From: a virus
Reading direction: 5' to 3' (one strand)
Length of the DNA: 25,191 bases
Virus record (IMG/VR): IMGVR_UViG_3300025327_000149
Coordinates: 1 to 25,191 of that record
Positions 13,923 through 20,138 of the stretch are shown here, one piece after another (the first letter of the stretch is position 1; each line of letters starts with the position of its first letter). Position numbers and translations under genes: made by a program. The notes beneath the pieces were generated by a model. It made no database searches. It saw only the letters and a program-made list of their open reading frames with translations, and had not been told where the DNA came from.

Positions 13923-13948
13923 TGGCTAAGCGATAAAGGACTTTGACC

Positions 13949-15184
13949 ATGACTGGTCTAGCTGGCCTTCGCGGAACAGGCGACTGGGGCACGGATGAGC
14001 GCCCAAAGAATTTCCGTGAAAGCATTTTGTTCTTCTCCCCGAATGGAACGGCGCCGATCTTTGCGCTTAGCTCGAAAGCGGGCAAGAAGTCAGTGAACGA
14101 TCCCGAGTTCGCCTGGTGGGCGGAATCGAACAACATCTTCCGTTTGCAGATAAACGGCGCACTCGGTTCTGGTGACACGACGATTACGGTGGACTCGGCC
14201 GATCCAACAAGCACCACAATGAGTGCGCTCTATGGTAACGCCACGCACTTGAAGCCGGGCGACTTGCTTCTTGTGGAGAAAACGGACCAAGCGACGTTCG
14301 ACAACGAACTGATCCAAGTCGATACAGTGTTGTCGGCGACGCAGTTCACTGCAACGCGCGGAGTTGGCGGAAGTTCGGCGGCGAGTATCAGTGACGACGT
14401 GTTCCTCACATTGATTGGTTCGGCTTATGCGGAAGGCACGAGTGCGCCTTCAGCGACCAGCAAGAATCCGATCAAGTTCTCGAACTATATTCAGATCTTC
14501 AAGGATAGTTACGAGATCACGGGAACCGCCGACAAGACGCTCGCGCGAACGGGCTCCGCTTGGAGCAATGACAAGAAGCGGAAGATGTTTAAGCACTCGG
14601 CCGATATCGAGTGGTCGATGCTTTTCGGGCGTGCTTACGAAACCACGGGCGACAACGGTAAGCCGTTGCGGTTCATGGGCGGACTTCGCGAACAGATTCC
14701 GGCGAGCAACACGACTGTGTTTGCTTCGGCGGTGACGGCAGCGAGCTTTGCGGACGCCGTTGCGCCCTGCTTTAACTTCGACTTCGGTGGCGGCGACACG
14801 CGCATCGGCTTCATGGGGAACGTTGCCCGAACAGAAATGGGCAAGGTGATCCAGGGAACGACTGGCATTCGGATGGAACTCGGCAACACCATCAAGATGT
14901 GGGGGATGAACTTCCAAGAGTTCATCATGCCAATGGGCAGGCTGTTGCTTAAGTCGCATCCGTTGCTCTCCCGTCATCCGCGGTACGACAACTCGATGTT
15001 TGTCGTCGACTTTTCCGTAATGAAGTACGTCACGATGACGGGAAGGCCGGATGGAAAGACATACGACGACGTGCAGAATAAGGACGAAGACGTGCGGCGC
15101 GGTTATATCCAGAGCGACTGTTCGCTCATGGTCGACGGCGGCGGCTTGACCTGCGCCTATCTCGGCAACATTAGCGCAACCTAA
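13949..15184 (+). CDS. Major capsid protein (SU10/DUF5309-like)
   Basis: ATG 13949 has AAAGGAC upstream; TTG 13943 is in frame but too near the RBS. The protein begins MTGLAGLRGTGDWGTDERPK and is 411 aa. A GDTTITVDSAD segment and KPGDLLLVEKTD form a beta domain, followed by YIQIFKDSYEITGTADKTL. A KKRKMFKHSADIEWSMLFGR helix and GLREQIP are features I associate with the DUF5309/SU10-type HK97-fold capsid proteins. Codon choice is strongly C-ending, as in a highly expressed gene. It is followed by a stable hairpin and the head fibre gene. Confidence 0.9.
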   Translation: MTGLAGLRGTGDWGTDERPKNFRESILFFSPNGTAPIFALSSKAGKKSVNDPEFAWWAESNNIFRLQINGALGSGDTTITVDSADPTSTTMSALYGNATHLKPGDLLLVEKTDQATFDNELIQVDTVLSATQFTATRGVGGSSAASISDDVFLTLIGSAYAEGTSAPSATSKNPIKFSNYIQIFKDSYEITGTADKTLARTGSAWSNDKKRKMFKHSADIEWSMLFGRAYETTGDNGKPLRFMGGLREQIPASNTTVFASAVTAASFADAVAPCFNFDFGGGDTRIGFMGNVARTEMGKVIQGTTGIRMELGNTIKMWGMNFQEFIMPMGRLLLKSHPLLSRHPRYDNSMFVVDFSVMKYVTMTGRPDGKTYDDVQNKDEDVRRGYIQSDCSLMVDGGGLTCAYLGNISAT

Positions 15185-15251: not shown

Positions 15252-16166
15252 ATGCGAAGCAATGTTGAAGGTTCGAGGCTGAGTGGAAATCTCTTGATGG
15301 AGAAGAACAAGCTTGGCCATATTTTCCAGTTGTTGGGCGCCACGTTCACAATGGACGCGGACATGCCCCCGCTGGTTTCGCTCGATCCGGGCGGTAGCGC
15401 TCGGACTGTTCTGCTTCCGGCTGAGGAAAAGGGTCTGTGGTTCCTTATCAGCAACACGGCGAACGCGAGTGAGCTTCTAACGGTTAAGGAAGACAGTAAC
15501 ACGACCACTATCGCAACGCTCGATCAGGACGAGTACGGGCTGTTCTTCTGCTCAGTGAACGAGGCGGGGGCGCTCGAGTGGCGCGCTCTAACGCCAAGTG
15601 GCATTGGTGATGCGCTCACGCTTGGTAGCTTGACCGTTTCAGGCGCGACTGCTCTGAACGGCAACACCGACATTGGTAATGCGGTGACGGACACGGTCGG
15701 CTTTTATGGTTCAACGAAGGTGGTTCAACCTGCTTCGGCGAGCCAAGCGGCGGTGACGCTTACGTTTAAGACTGCTCTAGTCACAACTCTTAAAACAGCG
15801 CTCGTTACCACGCTCAAGACTGCTATGACGGTAACGGCGGCGACCGCCGCCGGCACAACGGGCGCCATCAAGACTACGGGCGCGGCTTATGGCTATACGA
15901 CGAGTACACAGGCGAACAAGATCGTTTCGCTTGTCAATCAGCTCAAGGTTGACATGGCCGCGACGAAAGCTCGTGTAGACCAAGGTGTGGTCGACGTGGC
16001 CGCGATCAAAGCTCGTGTGGATCAAGGTGTCGTTGATGTTGCTTCAGTTAAGGCTCGTATCGATCAAGGCATCGTCGATATGGCGGCTGTGAACGTGCTT
16101 CTAACTGCGATCCGCGCTGGCCTCATCCCGACTTCTGGCGTTGGTGTCCTAAAGGGTGCTGCGTAA
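15252..16166 (+). CDS. Putative head fibre / capsid decoration protein
   Basis: TGAAAGG lies before ATG 15252. The N-terminal 115 residues form a beta module (MRSNVEG..., RTVLLPAEEKGLWFLISNTA, GLFFCSVNEAGALEWRALTP) related to the 853-aa fibre. A central VGFYGSTKVVQPASASQAAV matches a motif frequent in phage fibre or decoration proteins placed after the capsid gene. KTALVTTL is repeated in tandem (near residue 177). Then three 14-residue repeats of the form V-A-A-x-K-A-R-V-D-Q-G-V-V-D predict a trimeric coiled coil, ending in LLTAIRAGLIPTSGVG. Its stop overlaps the ATG of the glycosyltransferase-methyltransferase, so it may be that enzyme's substrate; this is inference. Confidence 0.82.
   Translation: MRSNVEGSRLSGNLLMEKNKLGHIFQLLGATFTMDADMPPLVSLDPGGSARTVLLPAEEKGLWFLISNTANASELLTVKEDSNTTTIATLDQDEYGLFFCSVNEAGALEWRALTPSGIGDALTLGSLTVSGATALNGNTDIGNAVTDTVGFYGSTKVVQPASASQAAVTLTFKTALVTTLKTALVTTLKTAMTVTAATAAGTTGAIKTTGAAYGYTTSTQANKIVSLVNQLKVDMAATKARVDQGVVDVAAIKARVDQGVVDVASVKARIDQGIVDMAAVNVLLTAIRAGLIPTSGVGVLKGAA
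15957..16082 (+). repeat. Three 42-bp coding repeats in head fibre gene
   Basis: Units at 15957-15998, 15999-16040 and 16041-16082 each encode 14 residues with the pattern A-x-x-K-A-R-(V/I)-D-Q-G-(V/I)-V-D. A partial fourth unit starts at 16083. Fourteen residues equal two heptads, so adding or losing a unit keeps a coiled-coil register. Confidence 0.85.
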
Positions 16167-17488
16167 TGCCGCGCGTTCTGCATTTGGGAGGCCTCCGAAA
16201 GGGGGCCTCTCAGAGGCTCTTCATCGCGACGCCGGTGATGGATTCGCCAGACCCCGAATACGTTCATTCAATCTTGCAAACGCAACTCGCCTTGTTCGCC
16301 GCGGGAATTGAAATGGATTGGACGCTGCTCGTTGGCGAGTGTCACGTTGACGACGCGCGGAATTTCCTCGTTCGTGAGTTTCTCGAAAGTGCTTGCACGG
16401 ATTTGCTGTTCATCGATGCGGACGAAGGTTGGTCGCCGGTTGAGCTTGTGAAACTTGCCGGTTGGGACTGCGATGTGGTAGCGGGCGTGCTGCCACGGAA
16501 GGCAGACACCGACGAAGGATATCCGGTTCGGTTGCTTCCAGGCGAAATCACGACGGATTCCCGTGGCTTGATTGAAGTCGAGGGCGTCGGTACAGGTTTC
16601 ATGCGGATTCGTCGCAATGTTCTCGAACAGATGTATGAAGCGGAACCTCGAAAGCACCGTGACAAGTTGAACGAGGATCAGAAACACCAAATTCCGATTC
16701 TTTTCGAGCGCGACTACGTAGACAGTCTTCGACTAAGCGGCGACTACGCTTTCTGTCGCAAGTGGAGGAAGCTGGGAGGGAAAATCTTCATCGACCCGGA
16801 CATGGGTTTTGCACATGTTGGGACGAAAGTCTGGACCGGACATCTTGGGCGCTACCTGTGCCAGAAGGAAAACCTGCTCACCCCAAAATTCTGTGCCGCG
16901 TTTAAGCGAATTCAGTCTGGAAAGTGGACTTTCGCTGACTTTGAGCAGATTTACGCTGAATGGAACAACCCGTTTTCGCTCGACCCAAAGGGCGCGGCAG
17001 CTCTATTCGAAGTTGCTCGAACGACAGTCGGGCATATTCTTGAAACGGGCTCTGGGCTTTCAACGTTGCTCTTCGCAGCCGCGGGCGCGGGGGTCTTTTC
17101 GCTTGAGCATGAGCTTTCGTGGGTGCAGCGAATGAAAACGGCGGTCGTGCAACTTGGGCTTGGGGACAAGGTCGAGCTTCACTACGCGCCGCTGCGCGAA
17201 TACAAGAGCGGAAACATCTGGTATACGATAGATACGGTCCTCCCAGACCACGTGGGTCTAGTGTTCTGCGACGGACCTCAGCGCGCGTGGGGAAGGGACG
17301 GAATTTTTGAAATTCTTGGCCATTTCGATGCCGCGCCCTTTATTTTCGACGATGCAAACGACGAGGAACTGTTGTCGAAGGTCGAGGCGTGGGCAAAGGG
17401 GCGTGGCCGCTCGGTTCAGGTGGTTGGCGAAGGACGGAAACTTGCAGTAGTTACTCCGCTTGCAGAGGTTCGAGAGGCCGCTGAATGA
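16166..17488 (+). CDS. Glycosyltransferase-methyltransferase fusion, 440 aa
   Basis: Residues about 18-225 form a GT-A glycosyltransferase: RLFIATPVMDSPDPEYVHSI, then DLLFIDADEGWSP with the metal-binding DAD at 84-86. VEGVGTGFMRIRR and SGDYAFCRKWRKLGGKIFID (Asp193) followed by FAHVG match Anp1-like/GT2-type C-terminal motifs. Residues about 270-430 form a class I SAM methyltransferase: ILETGSGLST (motif I, 293-297), acidic SLEHE (Glu314) and VFCDGPQ (Asp369). Its ATG overlaps the head fibre's TAA (TAATG) and its TGA overlaps the adaptor's ATG, so it is embedded in virion expression. It could glycosylate and methylate virion proteins or sugars. Substrate unknown. No frameshift between the domains. 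Confidence 0.85.
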   Translation: MPRVLHLGGLRKGASQRLFIATPVMDSPDPEYVHSILQTQLALFAAGIEMDWTLLVGECHVDDARNFLVREFLESACTDLLFIDADEGWSPVELVKLAGWDCDVVAGVLPRKADTDEGYPVRLLPGEITTDSRGLIEVEGVGTGFMRIRRNVLEQMYEAEPRKHRDKLNEDQKHQIPILFERDYVDSLRLSGDYAFCRKWRKLGGKIFIDPDMGFAHVGTKVWTGHLGRYLCQKENLLTPKFCAAFKRIQSGKWTFADFEQIYAEWNNPFSLDPKGAAALFEVARTTVGHILETGSGLSTLLFAAAGAGVFSLEHELSWVQRMKTAVVQLGLGDKVELHYAPLREYKSGNIWYTIDTVLPDHVGLVFCDGPQRAWGRDGIFEILGHFDAAPFIFDDANDEELLSKVEAWAKGRGRSVQVVGEGRKLAVVTPLAEVREAAE

Positions 17489-18126
17489 CCTACACGCGCG
17501 CAACGGCAGTTTCACGAATTCAGCGCGGGCTCGGCTTTCGCACCGACCTTGAAGATGAAATCGTCGATGCGCTGAAAGAGGCGCAACGGTTGCTTGAACG
17601 TGGTAAGAGCCTTCCATATTTCCTTTTGGGTGAAGACCAAACGCTCACAGTTGCAAGCGGGAGCGCCGATGTTTCGCTCCCAACAGGCTTTATTCGGGAA
17701 AAGCAAGACGAGCCTCTTCGGTTCACGGACAGCGACAACAACCTTATCAAGCTTGAGAAAGTCTCGCTCGACGTGGGCGTCACGCGCTTCGCAGACGTTG
17801 ACGCCGGAAAGCCTCAAGCCTATGCGCTGCGCAAGTCGGCGATTAAGTTTTTCCCAACTCGCGACACTGCCTATTCGCTTACCTGGAGCTATTTCGTTGC
17901 AGCCGACGAACTCACCACCGACATTACAAATGCGTGGTTGACGAACGCACCTGAGGTGCTCGTGGGTGCGGCGGGCATGATTATCTCTTCGGACCTCGGC
18001 GCAAACGGCGAGAAGGCGATGGCGAAGTTCCAGCAAATGTTCAATATTGCCTGGGCAGGTGTGTTTGCAGAAGGCGTGTTGCGCGAGGACGAGAACAAGC
18101 CTGTGATTGTTGGTGGGAGGCTATAG
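17485..18126 (+). CDS. Head-tail adaptor protein
   Basis: This 213-aa protein likely forms a ring beneath the portal, like P22 gp4 or T7 gp11. It begins MTYTRATAVSRIQRGLGFRT, then helix IVDALKEAQRLLERGKSLPY and beta part LPTGFIREKQDEPLRF. AYALRKSAIKFFPTRDTAYSL precedes TWSYFVAADELTTDITNAWL. The 'EAQ..LE.G..LP.FL', 'Y.L...YF.....L' and 'N.WL...P..L' layout is one I recognise from podovirus adaptor proteins. The start overlaps the preceding TGA (ATGA) and its TAG overlaps the GTG of the next gene. Confidence 0.82.
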   Translation: MTYTRATAVSRIQRGLGFRTDLEDEIVDALKEAQRLLERGKSLPYFLLGEDQTLTVASGSADVSLPTGFIREKQDEPLRFTDSDNNLIKLEKVSLDVGVTRFADVDAGKPQAYALRKSAIKFFPTRDTAYSLTWSYFVAADELTTDITNAWLTNAPEVLVGAAGMIISSDLGANGEKAMAKFQQMFNIAWAGVFAEGVLREDENKPVIVGGRL

Positions 18127-19114: not shown

Positions 19115-19261
19115 ATGACCACAGTTGCAATTGTGGGTTGGATTCTTGCCATCGGCCTTGGCATTGGCTGGTGGATCGATCATCGTGGCATAGCTGGAAT
19201 TAGGTCCGATCTAGCGGACGCTAGGCACGAAGCACAGCGCCTCAAAGACAAGGTGTCTTGA
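19115..19261 (+). CDS. Small membrane protein, 48 aa (lysis-associated?)
   Basis: Between the collar fibre and the lysin is a 48-codon frame beginning MTTVAIVGWILAIGLGIGWW. It has one transmembrane helix (residues 4-20), then a basic loop (IDHRGIAGIR) and a charged helix (SDLADARHEAQRLKDKVS). Its TGA lies one base before the lysin's ATG, with codons neatly coding throughout. N-terminal anchor plus periplasmic or cytosolic coiled coil suits an inner spanin or an accessory holin, but the protein is short. The RBS is weak. Confidence 0.7.
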   Translation: MTTVAIVGWILAIGLGIGWWIDHRGIAGIRSDLADARHEAQRLKDKVS

Positions 19262-19262
19262 C

Positions 19263-20138
19263 ATGGCTCAATATTCCTTTGAACGACTGCGGCCTGAATA
19301 TGAGGGGCTGTGGGGGCAAATGGTCGTGCTCAAAACACAGGCCGCGACCGATCAAGCCAAAAAGGTGATTGTCAATAAATCAAGGTATCTTGAAGTCGAA
19401 CGCAGAACTAGCGTGCCGTGGTTTGTCGTCGGCTGCTTGCATATGCGGGAGAGTAACGGCGATTTCAAGACCTACTTGGGTAACGGGCAACCGTTAAACC
19501 GTGTGACCACAATCGTACCGAAGGGGCGCGGGCCGTGGGGTTCGTTCGAGGATGGCGCAGAGGACGCCTTAGAAATTGACCATCTAGACCAAGTTAAGGC
19601 GTGGTCTGCGGCGCGCGTTGCCTATGCGATGGAATCGTTCAACGGCTTCGGATACCGTTCTCCTTCGCGCAATATTCCATCACCTTATTTATGGGGTGGC
19701 ACTAATGTACAAAAATCAGGAAAGTTTGTCCGCGATGGCGTATATAATCCAAAAGTCATGGACCCGCAAATCGGAGGCATGGCCGTTCTTAAGCAGATAA
19801 TGAAATTGGATTCTACAGCAAAGTTTAGTGCCTCGCCTCAGAAGCCTGCTGCACCGCCTGCCGATGAAACCCCGACCGTATCGCCAAAAGCAGAAGACAA
19901 TGAGAGCCAACTGAAGCCCCTCGCCAAGTCAAAGACAATGTGGGGCAACACCATTCAATGGCTATCCGGCGCGGGCGCGACAGTCATGGCGGCTCTAGCT
20001 GGCGTACCGTGGCAGGTGTGGGTTGTGATTGCCGTGTTGATCGTGATCGGAGCCTTCCTTGTCTACAAAGGCAGGATCGACGTGCAGAAAGTGGTGCAGC
20101 ATCTCAGTTCCGATGATACAATCGATGAGGCTGCGTGA
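19263..20138 (+). CDS. Membrane-anchored endolysin (lysozyme-like)
   Basis: Residues about 50-160 carry VPWFVVGCLHMRESNGDFKT with candidate catalytic Glu63, YLGNGQPLNRVTTIVPKGRG, and ESFNGFGYRS...SPYLWGG. I know this pattern from lysozyme-like cell-wall hydrolases of alphaproteobacteria and their phages. A Pro/Glu-rich linker (about 190-220) leads to a transmembrane segment (PWQVWVVIAVLIVIGAFLVY, about 249-268) and a short tail. C-terminal anchoring means export or release depends on the holin or a membrane topology not visible here. It is tightly coupled to the 48-aa gene upstream and the 3TM holin downstream. Confidence 0.83.
   Translation: MAQYSFERLRPEYEGLWGQMVVLKTQAATDQAKKVIVNKSRYLEVERRTSVPWFVVGCLHMRESNGDFKTYLGNGQPLNRVTTIVPKGRGPWGSFEDGAEDALEIDHLDQVKAWSAARVAYAMESFNGFGYRSPSRNIPSPYLWGGTNVQKSGKFVRDGVYNPKVMDPQIGGMAVLKQIMKLDSTAKFSASPQKPAAPPADETPTVSPKAEDNESQLKPLAKSKTMWGNTIQWLSGAGATVMAALAGVPWQVWVVIAVLIVIGAFLVYKGRIDVQKVVQHLSSDDTIDEAA

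Follow-up and report, generated by a model that had tools for sequence, protein, structure and literature searches.

A glycosyltransferase-methyltransferase fusion linked to a probable head fibre tip in podovirus head operons: a candidate portable cassette for virion glycosylation

Introduction

To our knowledge, virion glycosylation has been recorded in only a few tailed phages, and both its acceptors and its enzymes are mostly unassigned. The locus considered here raises that question in a compact form. In a SU10-like podovirus record of 25,191 bases, analysed over its whole length and hereafter called the window, a single gene joins a glycosyltransferase (GT) to a methyltransferase (MT) and is wedged between a probable head-fibre gene and an adaptor gene. 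What does the product of such a gene modify, and is the protein encoded just before it the acceptor? The evidence set out below leads us to propose, with a probability that we place a little under 60%, that the fusion belongs to a portable cassette with which the phage O-glycosylates the tip of its own head fibre and methylates that sugar.

Viral enzymes of related function provide points of reference. The chlorovirus PBCV-1 encodes A064R, a GT-GT-MT protein that adds rhamnoses to the capsid N-glycan and O-2-methylates the terminal one (PMC9614988). The archaeal virus STIV encodes A197, an essential GT that possibly glycosylates the STIV capsid protein, which is known to be glycosylated (PMC10551542). 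Mycobacteriophages are reported to carry glycans on the C-termini of their capsid and tail-tube subunits (Freeman et al., 2023, cited in PMC12619734) and are, like the phages of the present proposal, tailed phages with virion glycans; no MT fusion or fibre cassette is described for them in the citing paper. A literature search of partial coverage returned no description of a GT-MT fusion associated with a phage head fibre.

A single fused gene within the head operon

The fusion gene occupies positions 16166-17488 (plus strand, as do the coat, fibre and adaptor genes) and runs uninterrupted from ATG to TGA, encoding 440 amino acids in which a GT-A glycosyltransferase precedes a class I SAM methyltransferase. 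Pfam matches to the portal (PF23899), coat (PF17236) and adaptor (PF24175) families identify the virus as a SU10-like podovirus, with the major capsid protein of SU10 type at 13943-15184 (PF17236, E 1.5e-31) and the SU10-type adaptor at 17485-18126 (PF24175, SU10_adaptor, E 2.6e-14). The initial annotation, made from the bare sequence, had described one frame joining the two enzymes, overlapping both neighbours by start and stop bases and followed by an adaptor gene, and all of this holds. The frame is open and carries DAD at residues 84-86, SGDYAFCRKWRKLGG at 191-205, ETGSG at 293-297 and FCDGP at 367-371; its start shares one base with the upstream stop in TAATG (16164-16168), and its stop shares four bases with the downstream start in ATGA (17485-17488). 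Moreover, the frame is not a product of chance, since podovirus MW202691 encodes a full-length homologue of 43% identity and the motifs recur in 65 non-redundant fused homologues.

Searches of Pfam and NCBIfam with the window protein gave no match, and a PDB search with the single sequence returned a lone nanobody, which was discarded as spurious. Elsewhere in the window, positions 19263-20138 encode a protein of 291 residues that weakly matches phrog_14712 (chitinase, E 7e-7) and is possibly a lysis or cell-wall enzyme.

Folds and catalytic residues of the two domains

An AlphaFold model computed from a 64-row alignment (mean pLDDT 93.6, pTM 0.84) and its structural superpositions confirm the GT-A and class I MT folds that had been suggested beforehand. 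Residues 16-226 (16211-16843) form a single GT domain that superposes on STIV A197 (2c0n; Z 18.1, rmsd 2.1 over 162 residues, 24% identity) and also on the GT-A-like region of human LH3 (Z 16.6). This half matches phrog_1574 (E 1.1e-22), a PHROG entry of 240 positions with no assigned function and no MT part. Residues 230-434, including lead-in helices (16853-17467), superpose on TrmR (5zw3, Z 18.2) and on many COMT-like O-methyltransferases (Z about 16); the window domain differs from these enzymes of shared fold in being fused to a GT. PF13578 (Methyltransf_24) matches 14 of the 64 aligned members, with a best E of 5e-11, and a comparison of the family profile with the PDB independently recovered both O-methyltransferases and A197 (the latter at E 8e-4).

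Both aspartates of the DxD motif, D84-A85-D86 (16415-16423), are invariant in 64 of 64 aligned members, as is D193 of the SGDYAFC motif (16742-16744), a candidate catalytic base. In the MT half, the SAM site is marked by motif I (E/DxGxG; here ETGSG, 17042-17056), with E293 and G297 invariant; E314, the acidic residue after strand 2, is invariant as well. The invariant set of the alignment further includes H60, D62, D63, R65, N66, R150, R182, H217 and D369. The last of these, part of a DGP motif, forms with D395 and D396 (17270-17353; the latter two conserved in at least 90% of the alignment) a candidate set of divalent-metal residues. The metal ligands of COMT are D141, D169 and N170, and the three conserved aspartates may play the same part as in COMT-like O-methyltransferases, the comparison being one of conserved residues. 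Because the catalytic residues are invariant or nearly so, both domains look catalytically intact as judged from alignment and model, and the 65 fused homologues keep these residues.

A064R is the closest analogue of the window enzyme, as each is a viral GT with a C-terminal class I MT in the same chain. On a virion protein, A064R both assembles a sugar and O-methylates it, and by analogy the same logic may apply here. The two differ in that A064R, which has two GT domains, comes from an algal virus and completes the N-glycan of its major capsid protein, whereas the window enzyme has one GT domain, belongs to a tailed phage and has a fibre as its probable substrate. The two-GT make-up is absent from the window enzyme; about a dozen of its relatives have instead one or two extra GT genes after the fusion. 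STIV A197 resembles the window GT in being viral and of GT-A fold, but it stands by itself as a GT, and the archaeal virus encoding it has no relation to tailed phages.

A composite fibre with a threonine-rich linker

The upstream gene, whose stop codon overlaps the fusion, encodes a probable head fibre of composite make-up and 304 residues (15252-16166) with partial matches to fibre-like proteins. Its N-domain, residues 1-113 (15252-15590), is common to the nearest SU10-like relatives. There follow a conserved junction containing DTVGFYGSTKVVQP (residues 136-160, 15657-15731), which matches the fibres of P22-like fused loci (best E 8e-9); a linker of 30% threonine (residues 160-222, 15729-15917), which is the proposed acceptor; and a C-terminal helical repeat stretch (residues 223-304, 15918-16163), with helices at 219-257 and 263-291 and a block pLDDT of about 80-91. 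Three helices are predicted within residues 162-291 by a model of mean pLDDT 61.7 that is confident in the helices only. The protein had initially been called a coiled-coil head fibre. Its residues 139-197 match small fibre-like proteins that other phages encode in the same slot (E 8e-9), but searches of Pfam and PHROG with the window fibre gave no convincing match, and a PDB search with the fibre profile gave nothing significant. Among 47 relatives of the fibre, three match phrog_6994 (head fiber protein) and six a tail spike family; the window fibre itself matched no curated family.

The small fibres share a motif resembling DGxxxGxSxTEKIGFYGxTPVVQ, followed by a linker and a short C-terminus, and the composition of the linker varies with the enzyme encoded next to it. 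At fused loci, threonine makes up 0.31 of the linker over 24 residues, and TTT occurs in 33 of 49; linkers accompanied by a stand-alone GT have 0.17 Thr and 0.16 Ser, and those without a GT 0.18 Thr and 0.06 Ser. The difference between fused and stand-alone loci recurs in a sample chosen by fibre sequence (Thr, p 0.003; Ser, p 0.004). The excess of Ser plus Thr in GT-bearing over GT-less loci was significant in the first sample and not in the fibre-chosen one (p 0.09-0.12). The threonine content of the coat shows no difference, so the Thr-rich linkers are not an effect of genome composition. Tandem TTVDTTTI-like repeats, which resemble mucin-type acceptors, occur in the fibres of four loci (L089, L090, L096 and L100); in the GT tree, L089 and L096 fall in a small, separate branch of fused proteins.

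Distribution of the family and its place among head genes

Scans of IMG/VR yielded about 80 loci and the 65 non-redundant fused proteins. The fused genes are not scattered away from virion genes: all 57 fused loci whose upstream sequence reaches far enough have a major coat gene at a distance of at most 1.2 kb, and an adaptor gene is recognised downstream in 46 of 53. Three coat families are represented at the 57 loci: 49 coats are of P22 or SU10 type and 8 of N4 type, the N4 call being verified by PF13252 in three of the 8. At six loci where the fusion stands beside an N4-type coat (PF13252; L022, L043, L044, L057, L061 and L062), an unrelated protein of 133-140 residues fills the fibre slot, with no family match among those tested. 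In a tree of the GT domain, a single supported group holds 58 of 62 fused proteins, that of the window among them, together with three stand-alone copies; the other four fused proteins lie elsewhere. Repeated origin of the fusion, or its loss, is therefore probable.

The family also has a member in a named bacterium. A 602 kb contig of Mesorhizobium wenxiniae WYCCWR 10195 (L094, NZ_NPKH01000023.1) carries, in order, a portal gene, a P22-type coat (PF11651), a fibre of 71 residues with a Thr-rich linker, the fusion and, in the adaptor position, a phrog_2941 virion structural protein; by its gene content, this is an apparent P22-like prophage.

This distribution bears on two alternatives in which the target is not the virion at all. 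Phage glycosyltransferases often modify host surface polysaccharide, and the fusion might accordingly alter the host surface and block superinfection, a view to which the presence of at least one copy in a bacterial genome, albeit an apparent prophage, lends something. We consider it very improbable, given that the window gene overlaps virion genes at both ends, that the model is compact and soluble, and that the enzyme co-varies with a virion fibre, as described below. Alternatively, the enzyme could glycosylate a modified base of the phage DNA, in the manner of T4-type DNA glucosyltransferases, and methylate the sugar. Distant stand-alone GT relatives do lie amid sliding clamp, recombination and replication genes in DLP6, phiM19 and vB_OspM_OC (L102, L103 and L104), and some members may thus modify DNA rather than virions. 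For the fusion we give this explanation equally little credence: the gene sits in the head operon and not in a replication region, and the thymidylate-synthase/hydroxymethylase superfamily (PF00303) is absent from the window and from 22 fusion-bearing records, including the complete circular 40.5 kb genome of MW202691.

Co-variation of the fibre tip with the enzyme

P22-type coat loci were gathered as a control in which the enzyme does not select the sample. Of 66 that could be classified with enough downstream sequence, 35 have a GT of this family in the slot that follows the coat, fused in 2 and stand-alone in 33; the other 31 lack one there. A fibre-like gene, detected with a profile built from fused, GT-bearing loci, lies near the coat in 35 of the 35 GT-bearing and 9 of the 31 GT-less loci (Fisher p 1e-10, the related genomes not being independent). 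A second control was chosen by scanning with fibre sequences only; among its 48 distinct tips with complete downstream sequence, a GT follows directly in 37 (28 stand-alone, 9 fused) and is missing in 11.

Distances between proteins were compared by Mantel and partial Mantel tests on 57 non-redundant loci, in which the permutations leave some shared ancestry. The C-terminal part of the fibre follows the GT closely (r 0.71; 0.69 after removal of coat and scaffold; 0.66 among fused loci alone) and shows no significant correlation with the coat (0.06, p 0.15). The N-terminal part behaves in the opposite manner, correlating with the coat (0.44) and little with the GT (0.10), while neither the adaptor (-0.06) nor the scaffold (0.03) co-varies with the GT. 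A natural swap repeats this pattern: in L015 and L132 the coat is 91% identical, the scaffold 81% and the adaptor 74%, yet the fibres share 42% and the GTs, which are of different classes, 27%. From the co-variation and this swap, the boundary of exchange likely lies within the fibre gene, near the conserved motif.

Since tip and GT are adjacent, their co-inheritance could also reflect hitchhiking, with the two travelling together between conserved flanks, perhaps by means of homing endonucleases, and bearing no relation of enzyme to substrate. The tip-enzyme unit is indeed contiguous. Between coat and enzyme lie open reading frames that look by eye like HNH homing endonucleases (L048, 7396-8004; L060, 1552-2049) or carry an endonuclease annotation, as in MW202691; L001 has one of these at 19194-19775. 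Such genes could drive the exchange of the cassette. Nevertheless, the fibre C-part hardly co-varies with the contiguous N-part (r 0.17), in contrast to its correlation with the GT, which disfavours hitchhiking with random breakpoints. The shift of linker composition with enzyme type and the pairing of tip and GT on two coat types, P22 and SU10, also speak against passive transport. Hitchhiking with fixed breakpoints may still apply, and overall we regard co-transport of unrelated functions as improbable.

The window as a transfer event

The window itself appears to record one such exchange. Among 80 loci with window-type coats, the fusion is confined to the window's own virus; a stand-alone GT is present at 23, and the majority are without any GT. 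The nearest relatives (L185-L188, coat 76-79% identical) encode a protein of 115-128 residues that matches residues 2-113 of the window fibre; the adaptor gene comes next, and there is no GT. After about residue 135, the window fibre continues into an added tip whose matches are the fibres of P22-type fused loci described above. By sequence comparison, then, the window locus consists of an imported tip and fusion set upon a local N-domain. L197 shows the same pattern: what is left of the local N-terminus is followed by a tip and then by a stand-alone GT. In this coat lineage the tip profile is found in the window and L197 only, both of which have a GT. A 311-residue open reading frame after the GT of L197 (7545-8480) looks by eye like a second glycosyltransferase.

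The same lineage gives reason to consider another acceptor. Twenty-two SU10-like loci have a stand-alone GT of the window family and no detectable fibre tip, from which it follows that the fibre is not the acceptor everywhere; in loci with a GT but without a tip, another head protein is the likely acceptor. Extended to the window, this would mean that the enzyme modifies the major coat or some other head protein, the tip being simply encoded nearby or acting as a partner (a docking site, for instance). Many SU10-like loci do have their stand-alone GT straight after the coat with no tip found (among them L236, L238 and L241), N4-type loci have the unrelated small protein in place of a fibre, and A064R decorates a major capsid protein (PMC9614988). 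The divergence of the GT, however, tracks the fibre tip far more than the coat or scaffold, and we think this explanation unlikely, though it deserves more weight than the others weighed here. The proposal that accompanied the initial annotation, which was of a virion-glycosylation system and named the head fibre as the first substrate to consider, is supported in its general interpretation; as to the substrate, the co-variation of tip and GT, which neither adaptor nor scaffold shares, favours the fibre, and the 22 loci without a tip confine that choice to part of the family.

A proposed mechanism and its significance

On the reading that we prefer, the fusion would be a bifunctional virion-modifying enzyme, produced from the head operon right after its probable substrate. 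The GT-A half would transfer a sugar from a host nucleotide sugar to the Thr/Ser hydroxyls of the Thr-rich linker of the fibre tip; a PF01370 epimerase was found in none of 23 records, and the sugar donor is therefore assumed to be host-derived. The fused MT would then O-methylate the transferred sugar with SAM. The outcome would be a shell fibre bearing a phage-made methylated O-glycan, which might benefit the virion through, for example, shielding or surface adhesion. Tip and enzyme would form a matched module that passes from phage to phage and from one capsid lineage to another; the N-terminal part of the fibre, which probably binds the head, would stay with its own coat.

A broader formulation is that of a mobile glyco-fibre module, in which a Thr-rich and sometimes mucin-like tip and a dedicated glycosylating and methylating enzyme are swapped across phages and capsid lineages by recombination at the conserved motif of the fibre gene. 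We advance this more tentatively, and would put it at somewhat less than an even chance. If it is true, the glycosylation of the shell is swappable independently of the capsid.

A family with a probable acceptor encoded next to the enzyme, natural swaps between relatives and a copy in a named bacterium makes the question of enzyme and acceptor directly testable. If the proposal is correct, part of phrog_1574 at least could be assigned a function, and it would suggest that phage shells can acquire or exchange sugar coats as a module.
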